Below are positions 58,852-64,000 of a DNA stretch of 64,000 nucleotides, piece after piece (positions within the stretch are counted from its first letter, which is position 1; each line of letters opens with the position of its first letter). The notes under the pieces are model-generated. The model did not search any database. It was given only the letters and a program-made list of their open reading frames with translations, and was not told the DNA's origin. A program made the position numbers and the translations under genes. The stretch covers positions 1 through 64,000 of the forward strand of contig NZ_BONY01000027.1 of the NCBI RefSeq assembly GCF_016862955.1. Reading direction: 5' to 3'. Origin of the DNA: Rhizocola hellebori. Lineage in GTDB: Bacteria; Actinomycetota; Actinomycetes; Mycobacteriales; Micromonosporaceae.

Positions 58852-58954
58852 AACCGCTACCGTAGCCGCCCCGCGGCATCGCCGCCCGACGAGGATGTTG
58901 CCCCGCCGGGCCAGCGCCGGGATACTCGGCGCAACACGGGCGAAGGAGGAAAGG

Positions 58955-60394
58955 GTGGGCCGACGTTGGGTGCGTCTGGCCGCCCCTGCCGTCGCGGGAG
59001 CGGCGATCGCCACCATGTTCTTTTCAGCCCTGCGGCTCACCGGAAGATCCGTGCCGCTGCCGGTTCAGGCGCTGGCCGCCGGGATGTCGGCGGTGGCGGT
59101 GGTGGCCGCCTGGATCACCGTGCGGCGCTGGCTTCGATGCTCCAAGCTTGAAGCTCGATTGCATGCGGCACAGGCGGAGCGAGCCCGCCTGGCCCGGGAG
59201 ATGCACGACTCGCTCAGCAAGACCCTTGACGCGCTCGCGCTCGGCGCGGCCGCCCTGCCCTCGGCTCTCGACGAGCCGGATCACGCGGCCAGGCTCGCCC
59301 AGACCTTGCGCGATGGCAGCCTGACCGCGGCCCGCGACGCCCGCGCATTGATCGACGGACTTCGTGCCCGCCAGGCCGACGCGCCACTGCACGAGCTGCT
59401 CAGCGCCGCCTGCCAGGAGTGGTCGGCGGGCACCGGGGTGCCGGTCAGGCTGCGGGTCAGCCCGGTCGCGGTCCACCCGGAGCTGATCGTCGACATCGTG
59501 GAGATCGCCCGGGAGGCGCTGCGCAACGTGGCCGTCCACGCCGGCGCCCGGCTGGTCGAGGTGACTCTTGACCAGGATCGCGACATCGTCCTGACCATCA
59601 CCGACGATGGCCGCGGGGCGCACTGGGCCAGCGGTGTCCCCTCTGGCCGCTACGGGTTGCTGGGAATGGCCGAGCGCGCCCGGCTCGCGGGCGGAAAACT
59701 GCTGATCGCCCCGGGCCGCTCCGGTGGCACCACGATCATCGTTTCTTTTCCTTCCTGGAGCAGGCGACAGGCCGCTCCCGCCGCGGCCGGCCATCCCGGG
59801 CGGGTGTTGATGGCCTGCGCGGCAACGCTCGCCCTCGCGGTGACCGGCCTCGTGCTGACCGCCGCGCCTGCCCGCCAGTTCTCGTCGCGCACCTTCGAGC
59901 CGCCGATTGTCCAATCAGGACAGCCGATTTCGCCTACCCCGGCGGCTTCCCCGTCGCCGTCACCGTCACCGTCGCGTTCCCCGGCGGCGTCCCCCTCGCC
60001 CGCGGTGAGCCCCAAGCGCACGACCACCCCGCCTCAGCAGCCCTCGACAGGCAAGACCGGCTTGTGCCGAGTGCGCTACACCATCCGGGAACAGTGGAAC
60101 ACCGGGTTCACCGCCGACATCATCATCACCAATCTCGCCAGCACCCCGATCGACGGCTGGTCCCTGGTCTTCTCGTTCACCCCCAACCAGAAGCTGCTCG
60201 CCGCCTGGGACGCCACGGCGGCCCAGAACGGCCGCGTGGTAACGGTTTCCGACGGCGGGCGCAAGACGCTCATCGCGGCCGGACAGTCGATCAGCTTTGG
60301 GCTGCAAGGGAACTGGACCGGTGCCAACCCCGTTCCGTCCGCCTTCACGCTCAACGACGCGAGCTGCGCCACCGAGCCGGTCAGCGGCGGTTGA
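58955..60394 (+). CDS. Histidine kinase fused to an extracellular CBM2 cellulose-binding module
   Basis: A 479-residue fusion. GTG at 58955 has a strong GAAGGAGG site. Two N-terminal transmembrane helices (about 8-27 and 37-58) precede a cytoplasmic NarL-type kinase: HisKA_3 with REMHDSLSKT (His84), N-box EALRNVAVHAG (Asn191) and YGLLGMAERARLAGG. A third helix (about 283-303) crosses the membrane outward, then a Pro/Ser/Thr-rich linker (about 320-365) and a full CBM2 (371-471): Cys371 to Cys471, WNTGFTADIIITNL, DGWSLVFSF, GNWTG. I infer a sensor that directly touches cellulose. The 3' end overlaps the convergent response regulator by 14 bp, and cellulase genes follow. Confidence 0.93.
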   Translation: MGRRWVRLAAPAVAGAAIATMFFSALRLTGRSVPLPVQALAAGMSAVAVVAAWITVRRWLRCSKLEARLHAAQAERARLAREMHDSLSKTLDALALGAAALPSALDEPDHAARLAQTLRDGSLTAARDARALIDGLRARQADAPLHELLSAACQEWSAGTGVPVRLRVSPVAVHPELIVDIVEIAREALRNVAVHAGARLVEVTLDQDRDIVLTITDDGRGAHWASGVPSGRYGLLGMAERARLAGGKLLIAPGRSGGTTIIVSFPSWSRRQAAPAAAGHPGRVLMACAATLALAVTGLVLTAAPARQFSSRTFEPPIVQSGQPISPTPAASPSPSPSPSRSPAASPSPAVSPKRTTTPPQQPSTGKTGLCRVRYTIREQWNTGFTADIIITNLASTPIDGWSLVFSFTPNQKLLAAWDATAAQNGRVVTVSDGGRKTLIAAGQSISFGLQGNWTGANPVPSAFTLNDASCATEPVSGG

Positions 60395-61028
60395 GCCAGT
60401 AGACGACGGCCTGGGCCCGGTTGCGCACGTTGAGCTTGCGGTAGATCTGGCTCACCTGGTTACGCACGGTCTTTTCGGCGATCCCGAGCCGGGCCGAGAT
60501 CCCGCTGTTGGGCTCCCCCGCCACCATGAGATCCATGATCTGGCGCTCGCGCGGGGAAAGGCCGTGCGGGTCCGCGGCCGGCCCCGGCTGGCGCTCGCGC
60601 ACCGCCGTCATCAACGCGCGCGCGGCGCTCGGCGAAAGGTGCGCCTCGCCGCCGGCCACCGCATGGATGGCCTGTACCAGCTCGGCCGGGCTGAACTGTC
60701 CATGGACGAGAAACCCGAGCGCACCGGCCCGCACCGCCTCCAGGACCAGAGCATCATCGCTGATCCGCGTCAGCATGAGCACCTTGCTGTGTTCGCTGAT
60801 CGCCACTACCACGGACAGGCCGTCGCGCAGCGGCATCCGATGATCCAGCAGGGTCACATCGGGCTTGAGCCGGCGGGCCGCGTCCAGCGCCTGCTGACCG
60901 TCGGCCGCCTCACCGGCTAGGCGAATGCCTGTCCCCGGGTGCAGCATGTCGCGCAGCACTGCCCGGACGACTGTGTTGTCGTCGGCGACCAAGACGGTCA
61001 CGGCAACGGTGGGGGTGGCATCGCTCAT
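60381..61028 (-). CDS. LuxR-type response regulator with atypical receiver
   Basis: A 215-residue regulator. The receiver (about 10-125) has the acidic pair in VLVADDNTV, phosphoacceptor D62 in TLLDHRMPL and T87, but the conserved switch lysine is missing: GFLVHG places His109 there. The LuxR helix-turn-helix is in LSPRERQIMDLMVAGEPNSG and EKTVRNQVSQIYRKLNVRNR. It is convergent with the CBM2 kinase and divergent from the GH5 cellulase gene, with inverted repeats in that shared region. It is the most likely partner of the kinase and regulator of the cellulases. Confidence 0.92.
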   Translation of the reverse strand: MSDATPTVAVTVLVADDNTVVRAVLRDMLHPGTGIRLAGEAADGQQALDAARRLKPDVTLLDHRMPLRDGLSVVVAISEHSKVLMLTRISDDALVLEAVRAGALGFLVHGQFSPAELVQAIHAVAGGEAHLSPSAARALMTAVRERQPGPAADPHGLSPRERQIMDLMVAGEPNSGISARLGIAEKTVRNQVSQIYRKLNVRNRAQAVVYWLNRR

Positions 61029-61055: not shown

Positions 61056-61110
61056 TTGTCCCGCGCGGGCCGGGACATCGACCCGCGTTGTCCCGCTGTT
61101 TGCGGGACAA
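61056..61110. promoter_or_regulatory. Two TTGTCCC...GGGACA inverted repeats
   Basis: TTGTCCCGC-TGTTT-GCGGGACAA (61088-61110) has perfect 9-bp arms. A second, related repeat at 61057-61077 (TGTCCCG with a right arm of CGGGACA) has 7-bp arms and 7 bases between them. Both sit directly upstream of the response regulator gene and between it and the GH5 gene. They are candidate binding sites for the LuxR-type regulator. Confidence 0.65.
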
Positions 61111-61172: not shown

Positions 61173-61186
61173 TGGGAGCGCTCCCG
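61173..61186. promoter_or_regulatory. CebR/CelR-type box upstream of the GH5 cellulase
   Basis: TGGGAGCGCTCCCG matches the LacI-family CebR/CelR operator TGGGAGCGCTCCCA at 13 of 14 bases. It lies 77 bp before the cellulase start. In Streptomyces and Thermobifida this box is bound by a repressor released by cellobiose or related sugars. No cebR-like gene is in this window. A second short palindrome (CGAGCGCTCG) overlaps its right side. Confidence 0.85.
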
Positions 61187-61262: not shown

Positions 61263-63242
61263 ATGGCACTGACCAACATGACCGGCCGCCTGAGATGGCG
61301 CTGGCCGGTGGCATTCGCGACCGCGGCGGCAGCCCTGGTCACGGCCGCCGGGACAGCGGGCGCGGTGGCCCTCGCCGCGCCCGATGCTCCCCCCGCGCAG
61401 GCCGTCGCCGCCGTACCGGCCAAGGATTGGCTGCACACGGTCGGCAACCGCATCGTCGATGAGGCCGGCAATCAGGTCTGGCTGACCGGCGCCAACTGGT
61501 TCGGCTACAACGCCTCGGAGAGGGTCTTCCACGGTCTGTGGTCGGCCAACATCACCACGCTCACCAAGTCGATGGCCGACCACGGCATCAACCTGGTCCG
61601 CGTTCCGATCTCGACCCAGCTGCTGCTGGAATGGCGCGCGGGCACGGTCGTCACCGCCCCCAACGTCAACACCTTCGCCAACCCGGAGTTGCTCAACAAG
61701 AACAACCTGCAGATCTTCGACTTCTGGCTGCAGCTGTGCGAGCAGTTCGGCATCAAGGTGATGCTCGACGTGCACAGCGCGCTGGCCGACAACTCCGGTC
61801 ACATCCACCCGGTGTGGTGGAACGGCTCGGTCACGGTCGAGCAGTTCTACCAGGCATGGGAGTGGGTGACCACGCGCTATCGCGACAACGACACGATCAT
61901 CGCGATGGATGTCAAGAACGAGCCGCACGGCACGCCCAACTCGCCGCCGCGGGCCAAGTGGGACAACACCACCGATCAGGACAACTTCAAGAACGCCTGT
62001 GAGACCGCGGGAAGGCGCATCCTCGCCATCAACCCGAACGTGCTCATCCTCTGCGAGGGCATCGAGGTCTACCCGCGCGAAGGCAAATCCTGGAGTTCGC
62101 CGAACACCAACCCCGACCAGAGCCCGAACTACTACTACAACTGGTGGGGCGGCAACCTGCGCGGAGTGGCGACCAACCCGATCAACCTGGGCGCCAACCA
62201 GGATCAGCTGGTCTACTCCCCCCACGACTACGGACCACTGGTCTTCGACCAGCCGTGGTTCCAGAAGCCGTTCGACAAGGCCACGCTGACCACCGATGTG
62301 TGGCGTCCCAACTGGCTCTACATCCACGAGGGCGGCACCGCTCCGCTGCTCATCGGGGAATGGGGCGGCCGCCTCGGCCAGGACGCCCGACAGGACAGGT
62401 GGATGACGGCCCTGCGCGACCTCATCGTCGAAAACGGCCTGCACCAAACGTTCTGGGTACTGAACCCGAACTCCGGCGACACCGGCGGCCTGCTCCTGGA
62501 TGACTGGGTCACCTGGGACCAGACCAAGTACAACCTGCTCAAGCCGGCGCTGTGGCAGTTCCAGAACAAGTTCGTCAGCCTGGATCACCAGATCCGGCTC
62601 GGCGGGATCGACAGCACCACCGGCATCAACCTGGCCGACCGCTACGGCGGCGGGTCCGGCTCCGACACGACACCGCCCAGCGTGCCCGGCACGCTGCGGG
62701 TCACCGCCACCACGTCGAATTCGGTGTCGCTGGCCTGGAACGCGTCCACCGACAACGTCGGGGTCGCCGGCTACAACGTCTACCGGGCCGGAGTCCAGGT
62801 CGGAACCCCTGCCGGGACAACCTTCACCGACACCGGGCTCTCCGCCGCCACCGCTTACAGCTACACGGTGCGGGCCCGTGACGCGGCCGGAAACCTTTCC
62901 GCCGCTTCAACCGCGGTCACCGGAACCACCCAACCAGGAGGCGGCGGGGGCGGCGGATGCACAGCCACCTACCGGACGACCGGCTCATGGCAGGGTGGCT
63001 TCCAAGCGGAGGTCACTGTGGCCAACAGTGGCACCGCAGCAATAGCCGGCTGGACGGTGTCGCTCTCCATCGCCTCCGGACGTTCCATCAACAACCTTTG
63101 GAACGGCACGCTGACCGGCAGCAACGTCACCAACGCCCCACACAACGGCAACCTCGCCCCCGCGGCTACCACCTCCTTCGGGTTCGTGGCCAATGGCGAC
63201 GTCACCGGTGGGGTCAGCGTGGTGGGCTGCACGGCCCGCTAG
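61263..63242 (+). CDS. Secreted GH5 endo-beta-glucanase with FN3 and CBM2
   Basis: A 659-residue modular cellulase. ATG at 61263 follows a GGAAGG site. A long signal peptide (about 1-51) is followed by the GH5 catalytic domain (about 55-440), with the acid/base Glu220 in IIAMDVKNEPHGTP and the nucleophile Glu366 in PLLIGEWGGRLGQD. An FN3 module (about 472-556), a glycine linker and a CBM2 (about 566-659, Cys566 to Cys656, with GSWQGGFQAEVTVAN) follow. It hydrolyses cellulose outside the cell. A CebR-type box and two inverted repeats upstream suggest dual control by cellobiose and by the adjacent two-component system. Confidence 0.96.
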   Translation: MALTNMTGRLRWRWPVAFATAAAALVTAAGTAGAVALAAPDAPPAQAVAAVPAKDWLHTVGNRIVDEAGNQVWLTGANWFGYNASERVFHGLWSANITTLTKSMADHGINLVRVPISTQLLLEWRAGTVVTAPNVNTFANPELLNKNNLQIFDFWLQLCEQFGIKVMLDVHSALADNSGHIHPVWWNGSVTVEQFYQAWEWVTTRYRDNDTIIAMDVKNEPHGTPNSPPRAKWDNTTDQDNFKNACETAGRRILAINPNVLILCEGIEVYPREGKSWSSPNTNPDQSPNYYYNWWGGNLRGVATNPINLGANQDQLVYSPHDYGPLVFDQPWFQKPFDKATLTTDVWRPNWLYIHEGGTAPLLIGEWGGRLGQDARQDRWMTALRDLIVENGLHQTFWVLNPNSGDTGGLLLDDWVTWDQTKYNLLKPALWQFQNKFVSLDHQIRLGGIDSTTGINLADRYGGGSGSDTTPPSVPGTLRVTATTSNSVSLAWNASTDNVGVAGYNVYRAGVQVGTPAGTTFTDTGLSAATAYSYTVRARDAAGNLSAASTAVTGTTQPGGGGGGGCTATYRTTGSWQGGFQAEVTVANSGTAAIAGWTVSLSIASGRSINNLWNGTLTGSNVTNAPHNGNLAPAATTSFGFVANGDVTGGVSVVGCTAR

Positions 63243-63318: not shown

Positions 63319-64000
63319 ATGACCCCTCGATGGCTAGCCGGCACCGTGTGCGCTGTGCTGCTTAGTTTCGCGATATCCGCTAACCCGGCTCAGGCCGATG
63401 TGGACACCAGCCCGGTCCGGGTCAACCAGATCGGCTATCTGGCGGGCGCGGACAAAATCGCCACCATCGTCACCACGACCACCACCCCACGTGCCTGGCA
63501 GGTTCGCCAGGCCAGCGGCGGCGCGAGCGTCGCCAGTGGCACCACCACCGTCTTCGGCAACGACCGAGCCTCCGGCGATCACGTGCACCGGGCCGACTTC
63601 AGCGCCTTCACCACCCCCGGCAGCTACCTGCTGTGGGTCGACGGCGTGGGCCAGAGCGTCCCGTTCACCATCTCCACCACGGCCCTGTATCCCGATCTGG
63701 GCCGGGAAGCCATGCAGTACTTCTACTTCCACCGCATGGGATCCGCCGTCGATGGCCAGTTCCTGCAGAACTCGGGACACGCCCACGCCGCGCTGCACCC
63801 AGGCGACGAATCGGTCGGGTGTTTCAACTCGTGGTGCGGCAGCCAGCGGCTCAATGTGCGCTACTCGTGGGCCGATGCCGGGGACTTCGGGATCTACGCC
63901 GTGAACCATGCCGTCTCCGCCTGGACCCTGCTCAACCTCTACGAGCGTTACCCCGACGCCTATCCGGACGGCTCCCTGCGCATCCCGGAGAACGCCAACG
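63319..64000 (+). CDS. Secreted GH9 cellulase (5' part, cut by window end)
   Basis: The first 227 residues of a large exported enzyme. ATG at 63319 has an AAGGAG site and opens a signal peptide (about 1-26, ending PAQA-D). An N-terminal Ig-like CelD_N domain follows (RVNQIGYLAGADKIATI to GSYLLWVDGVGQSVPFTIS). The catalytic domain begins near 121 (LGREAMQYFYFHRMGSA) with the GH9 motif SWADAGDFGIYAVNHA carrying Asp186 and Asp189, one of them the catalytic base. The rest, including the catalytic Glu and any CBM, lies beyond the window. It likely cooperates with the GH5 enzyme in the same transcription unit. Confidence 0.93.
   Translation, partial: MTPRWLAGTVCAVLLSFAISANPAQADVDTSPVRVNQIGYLAGADKIATIVTTTTTPRAWQVRQASGGASVASGTTTVFGNDRASGDHVHRADFSAFTTPGSYLLWVDGVGQSVPFTISTTALYPDLGREAMQYFYFHRMGSAVDGQFLQNSGHAHAALHPGDESVGCFNSWCGSQRLNVRYSWADAGDFGIYAVNHAVSAWTLLNLYERYPDAYPDGSLRIPENAN

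Follow-up and report, generated by a model that had tools for sequence, protein, structure and literature searches.

A histidine kinase carrying its own CBM2: a probable contact sensor of insoluble cellulose in Rhizocola hellebori

The gene at positions 58955-60394 of the window, by which we mean the whole stretch of 64,000 nucleotides of Rhizocola hellebori DNA that was analysed, is a NarL/DesK-type histidine kinase fused to a CBM2 in a single intact gene (Table 1). The outer CBM2, the inner kinase, the adjacent regulator and cellulases and the conservation of the whole arrangement suggest that the protein probably senses solid cellulose and turns on the enzymes for its digestion. The explanation that we prefer, and hold to be likely with some room for doubt, is that of a contact sensor of insoluble cellulose that would drive its own regulator and the neighbouring cellulases as a two-component system. 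An earlier note on this DNA had proposed such a contact sensor; the predicted topology, the partner regulator, the cellulases and the conservation favour its interpretation, and the loss of the third tryptophan of the cellulose face counts against it.

Table 1. Features of the kinase locus in the window, with strand and the evidence for each.
Feature	Position	Strand	Evidence
Likely ribosome-binding site (AAGGAGG) of the kinase gene	58943..58949	+	sequence reading; 5 nt before GTG
Histidine kinase with C-terminal CBM2, 479 aa	58955..60394	+	continuous ORF, Pfam, alignment
Transmembrane helices 1 (residues 8-26) and 2 (residues 33-51), N-terminal	58976..59107	+	hydropathy
HisKA_3 dimerisation/phosphoacceptor domain; His84 codon 59204-59206	59177..59371	+	Pfam
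HATPase_c catalytic domain	59492..59752	+	Pfam; best solved relatives DesK
Third transmembrane helix, residues 284-302	59804..59860	+	hydropathy
Outer linker, Pro/Ser/Thr-rich, 68 residues	59861..60064	+	composition
CBM2, CBM2a-like, C371 to C471	60065..60367	+	Pfam, alignment, model
NarL/FixJ-type response regulator, convergent with the kinase	60381..61028	-	Pfam, NCBIfam, alignment
TGTCCC-N9-GGGACA inverted repeat, copy 1, candidate regulator operator	61057..61077	.	pattern scan
TGTCCC-N9-GGGACA inverted repeat, copy 2, 32 bp further	61089..61109	.	pattern scan
CelR-like palindrome TGGGAGCGCTCCCG, one mismatch	61173..61186	.	pattern scan
GH5 cellulase (GH5, fn3, CBM2), divergent from the regulator	61263..63242	+	Pfam; best solved relatives GH5 cellulases
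GH9 cellulase, first part (CelD_N, GH9, fn3, CBM2)	63319..64000	+	Pfam; start codon chosen by eye

Domain architecture of the kinase

The reading frame of the kinase is uninterrupted from its GTG start codon at 58955 to its end, and third-position GC is high along the whole of it (0.76-0.91). Pfam recognizes HisKA_3 (E 1.4e-9), HATPase_c (E 4.2e-6) and CBM_2 (E 9.1e-28) in the one protein, the last of them over profile positions 1-101 of 101. The HisKA_3 phosphoacceptor, His84, is present within AREMHDSLSKTL, and the motifs REALRN, DDGRG and YGLLGM, which we take to be the N, G1 and G2 boxes, are largely invariant among eight sequences. According to NCBIfam the kinase resembles NarX/NarQ, with scores below the curated cut-offs, while its closest solved structures are DesK. 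The third helix starts 17 residues past the last strand of the ATPase domain, and the linker behind it is made up to 72% of Pro, Ser, Thr, Ala or Gly. All the parts that the earlier note had read here (a complete NarL-type kinase with its histidine and boxes, the third helix, the Pro/Ser/Thr-rich linker and a full CBM2 with paired Cys) were recovered. The note had also named a sequencing frameshift joining two genes as a danger to its reading, but no evidence of one was found: a frameshift or chimera is ruled out by the continuous frame and by the same architecture in seven genomes.

The kinase is predicted to lie inside the cell and the CBM2 outside, as had been proposed before. The last helix has more Arg/Lys on its inner side in seven of the eight sequences (with a tie in G017:C8), all eight linkers consist to 68-82% of Pro, Ser, Thr, Ala or Gly, and the equivalents of C371 and C471 are unchanged throughout; given this charge bias, the linkers and the cysteine pair, a CBM2 inside the cell is unlikely. 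The leash between the ATPase domain and the third helix is only 11-18 residues long in the eight sequences. The number of N-terminal helices goes from one (G017:C8) through two (window) to five (G016), and the N-terminal part and the linker are, by eye, the least conserved stretches of the alignment, whereas the CBM2 and the third helix are retained in all seven orthologues. Placing a sensor at the C-terminus is indeed unusual, since six related kinases devoid of a CBM2 (in G024, G018, G009, G006 and G106, plus a further kinase of G016) stop shortly behind the ATPase domain; in the five kinase loci analysed, out of 11 from the own genome, no helix was found after this domain.

The CBM2 and its cellulose face

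We compared eight sensor CBM2s, namely those of the seven orthologues (window included) and of one partial paralogue. The window domain aligns over its full length with the CBM2a of Cellulomonas fimi Cex (1exg, 6qfs). The AlphaFold2 model (with the window and related-locus sequences as input), a structure prediction of the kind that the earlier note had suggested, has the CBM2 fold at a pLDDT of 91.6, and its first match by E-value is the C. fimi CBM2a variant 6qfs (TM 0.90, rmsd 1.1). The top fold matches (6qfs, 3ndy and 1exg) are domains from cellulose-acting enzymes; a chitin-binding CBM2 relative (2rtt) comes sixth with TM 0.75, and 1xbd and 1heh, which bind xylan, are at ranks 18 and 30.

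In Cex numbering, W17, G20 and W54 are retained in all eight sensor CBM2s. The window equivalents of W17 and W54 are W381 and W418, but W72 corresponds to Arg436, and position 72 is aromatic in a single sensor (Tyr, G108) compared with 38 of 43 other CBM2s of the own genome, a count that excludes four CBM2s from likely membrane proteins and relies on secreted status judged by eye from the N-termini. A Fisher test of this difference gives p 5e-5, which is no true probability because the rows are related. The claim that the usual tryptophans are present consequently holds for two of them and fails for the third. The set of three coplanar surface aromatics typical of CBM2a (W17, W54, W72) is incomplete in the window, but the Gly (not Arg) that CBM2a has beside the first tryptophan is there in 8 of 8, and the window domain shows no gap like the missing eight-residue stretch that is the hallmark of CBM2b. 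An Arg at this Gly position is reported to turn the first tryptophan in CBM2 (PMC5935602). Both adjacent cellulases, GH5 and GH9, have His at position 72 of their CBM2s, and a Streptomyces cellulase CBM2 is described as lacking the third tryptophan too, with Asp instead (PMC5935602). Loss of the third tryptophan may loosen the grip and render it reversible, a property that would be fitting in a sensor.

Partner regulator

A convergent NarL-type regulator adjoins the kinase in all seven loci, with 3' ends that overlap in six (by 14 bp in the window) and abut in L130. Pfam finds Response_reg and GerE (receiver and LuxR domain) in the first regulator of every locus, which also carries the phospho-Asp motif LLD(H/Q)RMP in 7/7 (as LLDQRMP in L112). 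The switch position of receivers usually holds Lys, and His replaces it in all seven canonical or fused regulators (H109 in the window, LVHGQF). Five loci (L113, L128, L129, L130 and L131) have two tandem regulator genes, the first canonical with receiver and LuxR domain, the second, next to the kinase, with a receiver devoid of the acidic pair and the phospho-Asp; in all five second regulators Pfam detects the LuxR part and, at E 1e-4, no receiver. The window and L112 have a single regulator. Its receiver shares 61-69% identity with canonical receivers and 19-33% with those of the other type; its DNA-binding part, conversely, shares 58-65% with the second type and 40-53% with the canonical one. 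Judging from these identities, the two tandem regulators seem to have been fused here, which suggests that in the other genera they work jointly.

Neighbouring cellulases and the promoter region

Divergent from the regulator there is a GH5 gene in five of the seven loci, in the form of GH5-fn3-CBM2 in the window and L112 (both followed by GH9-fn3-CBM2), GH6-GH5-fn3-CBM3 in L113 and L128, and GH5-fn3-CBM3 in L131. The GH5 catalytic parts of the four other intact loci are 71-86% identical to that of the window, where the GH9 gene extends beyond the window end to C27:65943. The sixth locus, L129, has a broken GH5, and no GH5 of this type was found within the 16 kb of L130. The remnant in L129 (5053-5332) lies beside a LigD primase-polymerase gene, and the kinase and regulators there are intact.

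The inverted repeat TGTCCC-N9-GGGACA sits between the CelR-like site and the regulator start in the window, and is found in exact form in five of the seven loci (window, L112, L113, L128 and L130), L129 and L131 having only a 10-spaced form with one mismatch, TGTCCC-N10-GGGACC. An exact repeat appeared in 1 of 14,000 simulated regions, for a pattern that was picked after being noticed. No further copy with one mismatch or fewer was found in 419,597 bp of own-genome loci (the window and L064 overlap), where the other CBM2 genes sampled also lack it, so the repeat seems to mark the kinase locus.

The putative CelR site at 61173 is within one base of TGGGAGCGCTCCCA, and a single site is weak alone, since 50 of 100 window shuffles hold a match when two mismatches are allowed. 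A CelR-like site with 0-1 mismatch is nonetheless present upstream of the regulator in all seven loci; in L113 the nearest copy has two mismatches and an exact copy lies 132 bp further up. At the locus of the partial paralogue (L114) no CelR-like site was detected. Around the CBM2 stretches of the own genome we counted 13 CelR-like sites with 0-1 mismatch in 289,893 bp.

Distribution among relatives

We searched the family with the kinase part alone (121 genomes of 44 genera, E 1e-40, up to 19 candidates scored per genome) and obtained matches in seven genomes from five genera (own, G016, G017, G043, G060, G080 and G108), all of which carry the helix, the linker and the C-terminal CBM2; at these settings the other 114 gave no match. 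The search for HisKA_3 plus CBM2 fusions near cellulases that the earlier note had envisaged is in this way answered positively for 7 of 121 family genomes, with GH5 divergent in 5/7. The six other orthologues are 43-61% identical to the window kinase in the alignment, with motifs intact. An earlier search of 31 family genomes had yielded two orthologues (G017 at 62% and G016 at 48%) and one partial paralogue in G017, together with CBM2-only matches in many genomes. The paralogue (L114:8067-9074) is a second CBM2-bearing kinase copy without the phosphoacceptor part in frame, probably decayed.

Beyond this family the samples were small and included some of its members: among 111 genomes of the order (E 1e-36) only the own genome and G106 matched, the latter a member of the same family with a kinase lacking CBM2, and among 108 genomes of the class (E 1e-33) only the own genome did. 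Scanning the genome contigs with single-protein patterns gave three relatives, none spanning both kinase and CBM2, and no plasmid record covers 80% of the query. A weak full-length match in G025 (27%) turned out to combine two distinct ORFs, one for a kinase and the other for a CBM2 protein, and was dropped. In a CBM2 tree the seven intact sensors form a group (support 80/94) that excludes the CBM2s of the two adjacent cellulases (GH5 and GH9), although the tree rests on few columns, its support is below its star mark, and that of the sensor group falls to 36/0 when the paralogue is added. This grouping is compatible with a single old fusion, without proving it; a recent copying of the CBM2 from the neighbouring cellulases finds no support in this tree of few columns.

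Proposed mechanism and alternative explanations

If the protein is a contact sensor, its CBM2 would grip exposed cellulose, and many sensors on one fibre would be held in register or put under tension. Grip or tension would be relayed via the third helix to the ATPase domain, and, the leash of 11-18 residues being so short, an outside pull or clustering could limit or free the movement of this domain. Autophosphorylation of the kinase would change in response, and the response regulator would then bind TGTCCC-N9-GGGACA, raising the expression of its own gene and of the divergent GH5 and GH9 genes. CelR, freed by cellobiose, would bring a second input, that of soluble sugar, to the same promoter region. 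Several observations speak against such a contact sensor: a linker so long and flexible is ill suited to passing on a conformational signal, the third tryptophan of the cellulose face is missing from the window and aromatic in only one of eight sensors, the receiver has H109 in place of the usual switch Lys, L130 is without such a GH5 and L129 and L131 have only an imperfect repeat, and no match was found in 114 of the 121 family genomes (E 1e-40, up to 19 candidates scored per genome). A bolder idea, which we entertain tentatively, is that the protein stands for a new class of sensors of solid surfaces, a kinase wired backwards, in which the grip on a solid polymer, acting via the C-terminal helix, would gate the reach of the leashed ATPase domain to the phosphoacceptor His, with an output that in five of the seven loci would pass through a regulator pair (one with a receiver, one without phospho-Asp), fused in the lineage of the window.

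A different possibility, to which we give a small share of belief, is that the kinase senses another cue (membrane state or an envelope signal via the N-terminal helices, DesK-like) and that the CBM2 does no more than tether the cell or the kinase to cellulose. DesK senses membrane state, the closest solved kinases are DesK and the linker is long and flexible, all of which would agree with an anchor; it is, however, the N-terminal part that varies and the CBM2 and third helix that are kept in all seven, and the genome, with its 48 CBM2 stretches, would seem to have no need of an anchor on the kinase. We judge it similarly improbable that the ligand is another insoluble glycan (xylan, chitin or the own cell wall), or more than one. 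A CBM2 with two tryptophans does recall CBM2b, in which the missing residue is the equivalent of W72, and the chitin-binding relative comes sixth among the fold matches. CBM2b, which lacks an eight-residue stretch bearing a surface tryptophan, is reported to bind xylan, and one CBM2a to bind both cellulose and xylan (PMC9996879). Nevertheless, a xylan-type CBM2b is not supported by the full 101-position match with no eight-residue deletion, by the Gly in 8/8 where an Arg would turn the first tryptophan, or by fold ranks in which domains of cellulose-acting enzymes come first and xylan binders low; moreover, the neighbours are GH5, GH6 and GH9 enzymes and the Streptomyces cellulase CBM2 mentioned above also lacks its third tryptophan (PMC5935602). 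Finally, a decaying or chance fusion, in which a cellulase CBM2 joined the kinase with no sensing role, could draw on the adjacent cellulases as a source of CBM2 sequence and on the paralogue in L114 without its in-frame H-box region, but it is very hard to reconcile with one architecture in seven genomes of five genera, intact motifs at 43-61% identity in the six others, and sensor CBM2s that group with each other (80/94, or 36/0 with the paralogue) and not with the neighbouring GH5 and GH9.

Comparison with known systems and implications

RsgI of Clostridium thermocellum, acting with SigI, is also a membrane protein, with its signalling part in the cytoplasm and an outer module at the C-terminus; the outer modules of RsgI1, 2, 4 and 6 are reported to bind cellulose and the system to control cellulosome genes (PMC4711584). 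It differs in holding a sigma factor and signalling by cleavage in the membrane (PMC12203970), and in its CBM3, PA14 or GH10 modules, in place of which the window has a histidine kinase, a CBM2 and a response regulator. We found no anti-sigma domain in the window protein, and the regulators are of LuxR/NarL type, with only an HTH weakly like sigma region 4. XydS/XydR of Clostridium cellulolyticum is likewise a two-component control of plant-cell-wall enzymes, responding to straw, but with an AraC-type regulator and no CBM on the kinase in the available part of the description (PMC3572039). Canonical NarL/DesK-type kinases share HisKA_3, HATPase_c and a NarL-type response regulator with the window kinase, which differs by its sensor behind the ATPase domain, attached via an extra helix. 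In the CelR regulon of Thermobifida and other actinobacteria, as in the window, a CelR-like palindrome precedes regulator and cellulase, and CelR sites are reported at Ser/Thr kinase genes and at proteins weakly like histidine-kinase ATPase domains; however, CelR answers soluble cellobiose, and the accessible text describes no CBM-bearing kinase (PMC3377646).

The own genome contains 48 CBM2 stretches in 47 open frames. One of its Ser/Thr kinases (L102:2328-4367, on C21) is laid out like the window kinase: by eye a helix is likely, and a CBM2-like domain follows at the C-terminus. This domain is below the Pfam cut-off, very degenerate and lacks the tryptophans. Two neighbouring proteins on C33 (L101:4350-5420 and L101:3417-4343) have a hydrophobic stretch followed by a CBM2-like domain, one of them with an AHSA1-type domain ahead of the stretch, and a short protein on C49 (L099:3542-4312) has a hydrophobic stretch, a Pro/Ser linker and a CBM2, with no other convincing Pfam domain. 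With such likely membrane proteins bearing a CBM2-like outer domain, the earlier statement that CBM2 is otherwise known from secreted hydrolases was too strong. In G106, the related kinase without CBM2 is found beside a separate gene that encodes a helix, a Pro/Ser/Thr linker and a beta domain resembling CBM35/CBM6 by eye (L132:1471-3592), perhaps a two-gene glycan sensor.

A kinase with its own CBM2 was named in no title or abstract start within a search lacking most subscription journals and bioRxiv preprints, nor in the parts available of PMC3377646, PMC2386152, PMC3572039, PMC2914790, PMC4711584, PMC9996879, PMC5935602 and PMC3749933. The assertion that no sensor of this design had been characterised stands to that extent, but since the outer CBMs of RsgI are already known as biomass sensors (PMC4711584), the principle is not new; what appears to be new is its two-component build.

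The model of the cellulose response in Thermobifida fusca is based on cellobiose and CelR (PMC3377646). A kinase that touches cellulose would, if confirmed, directly answer the question of how aerobic bacteria detect solid cellulose when no soluble sugar is present yet, and its defined partner, predicted DNA site and predicted target genes could all be tested in one strain. Biosensors of insoluble polymers would also gain a component that is ready for use, and signalling from a sensor that follows the ATPase domain could be studied in it.
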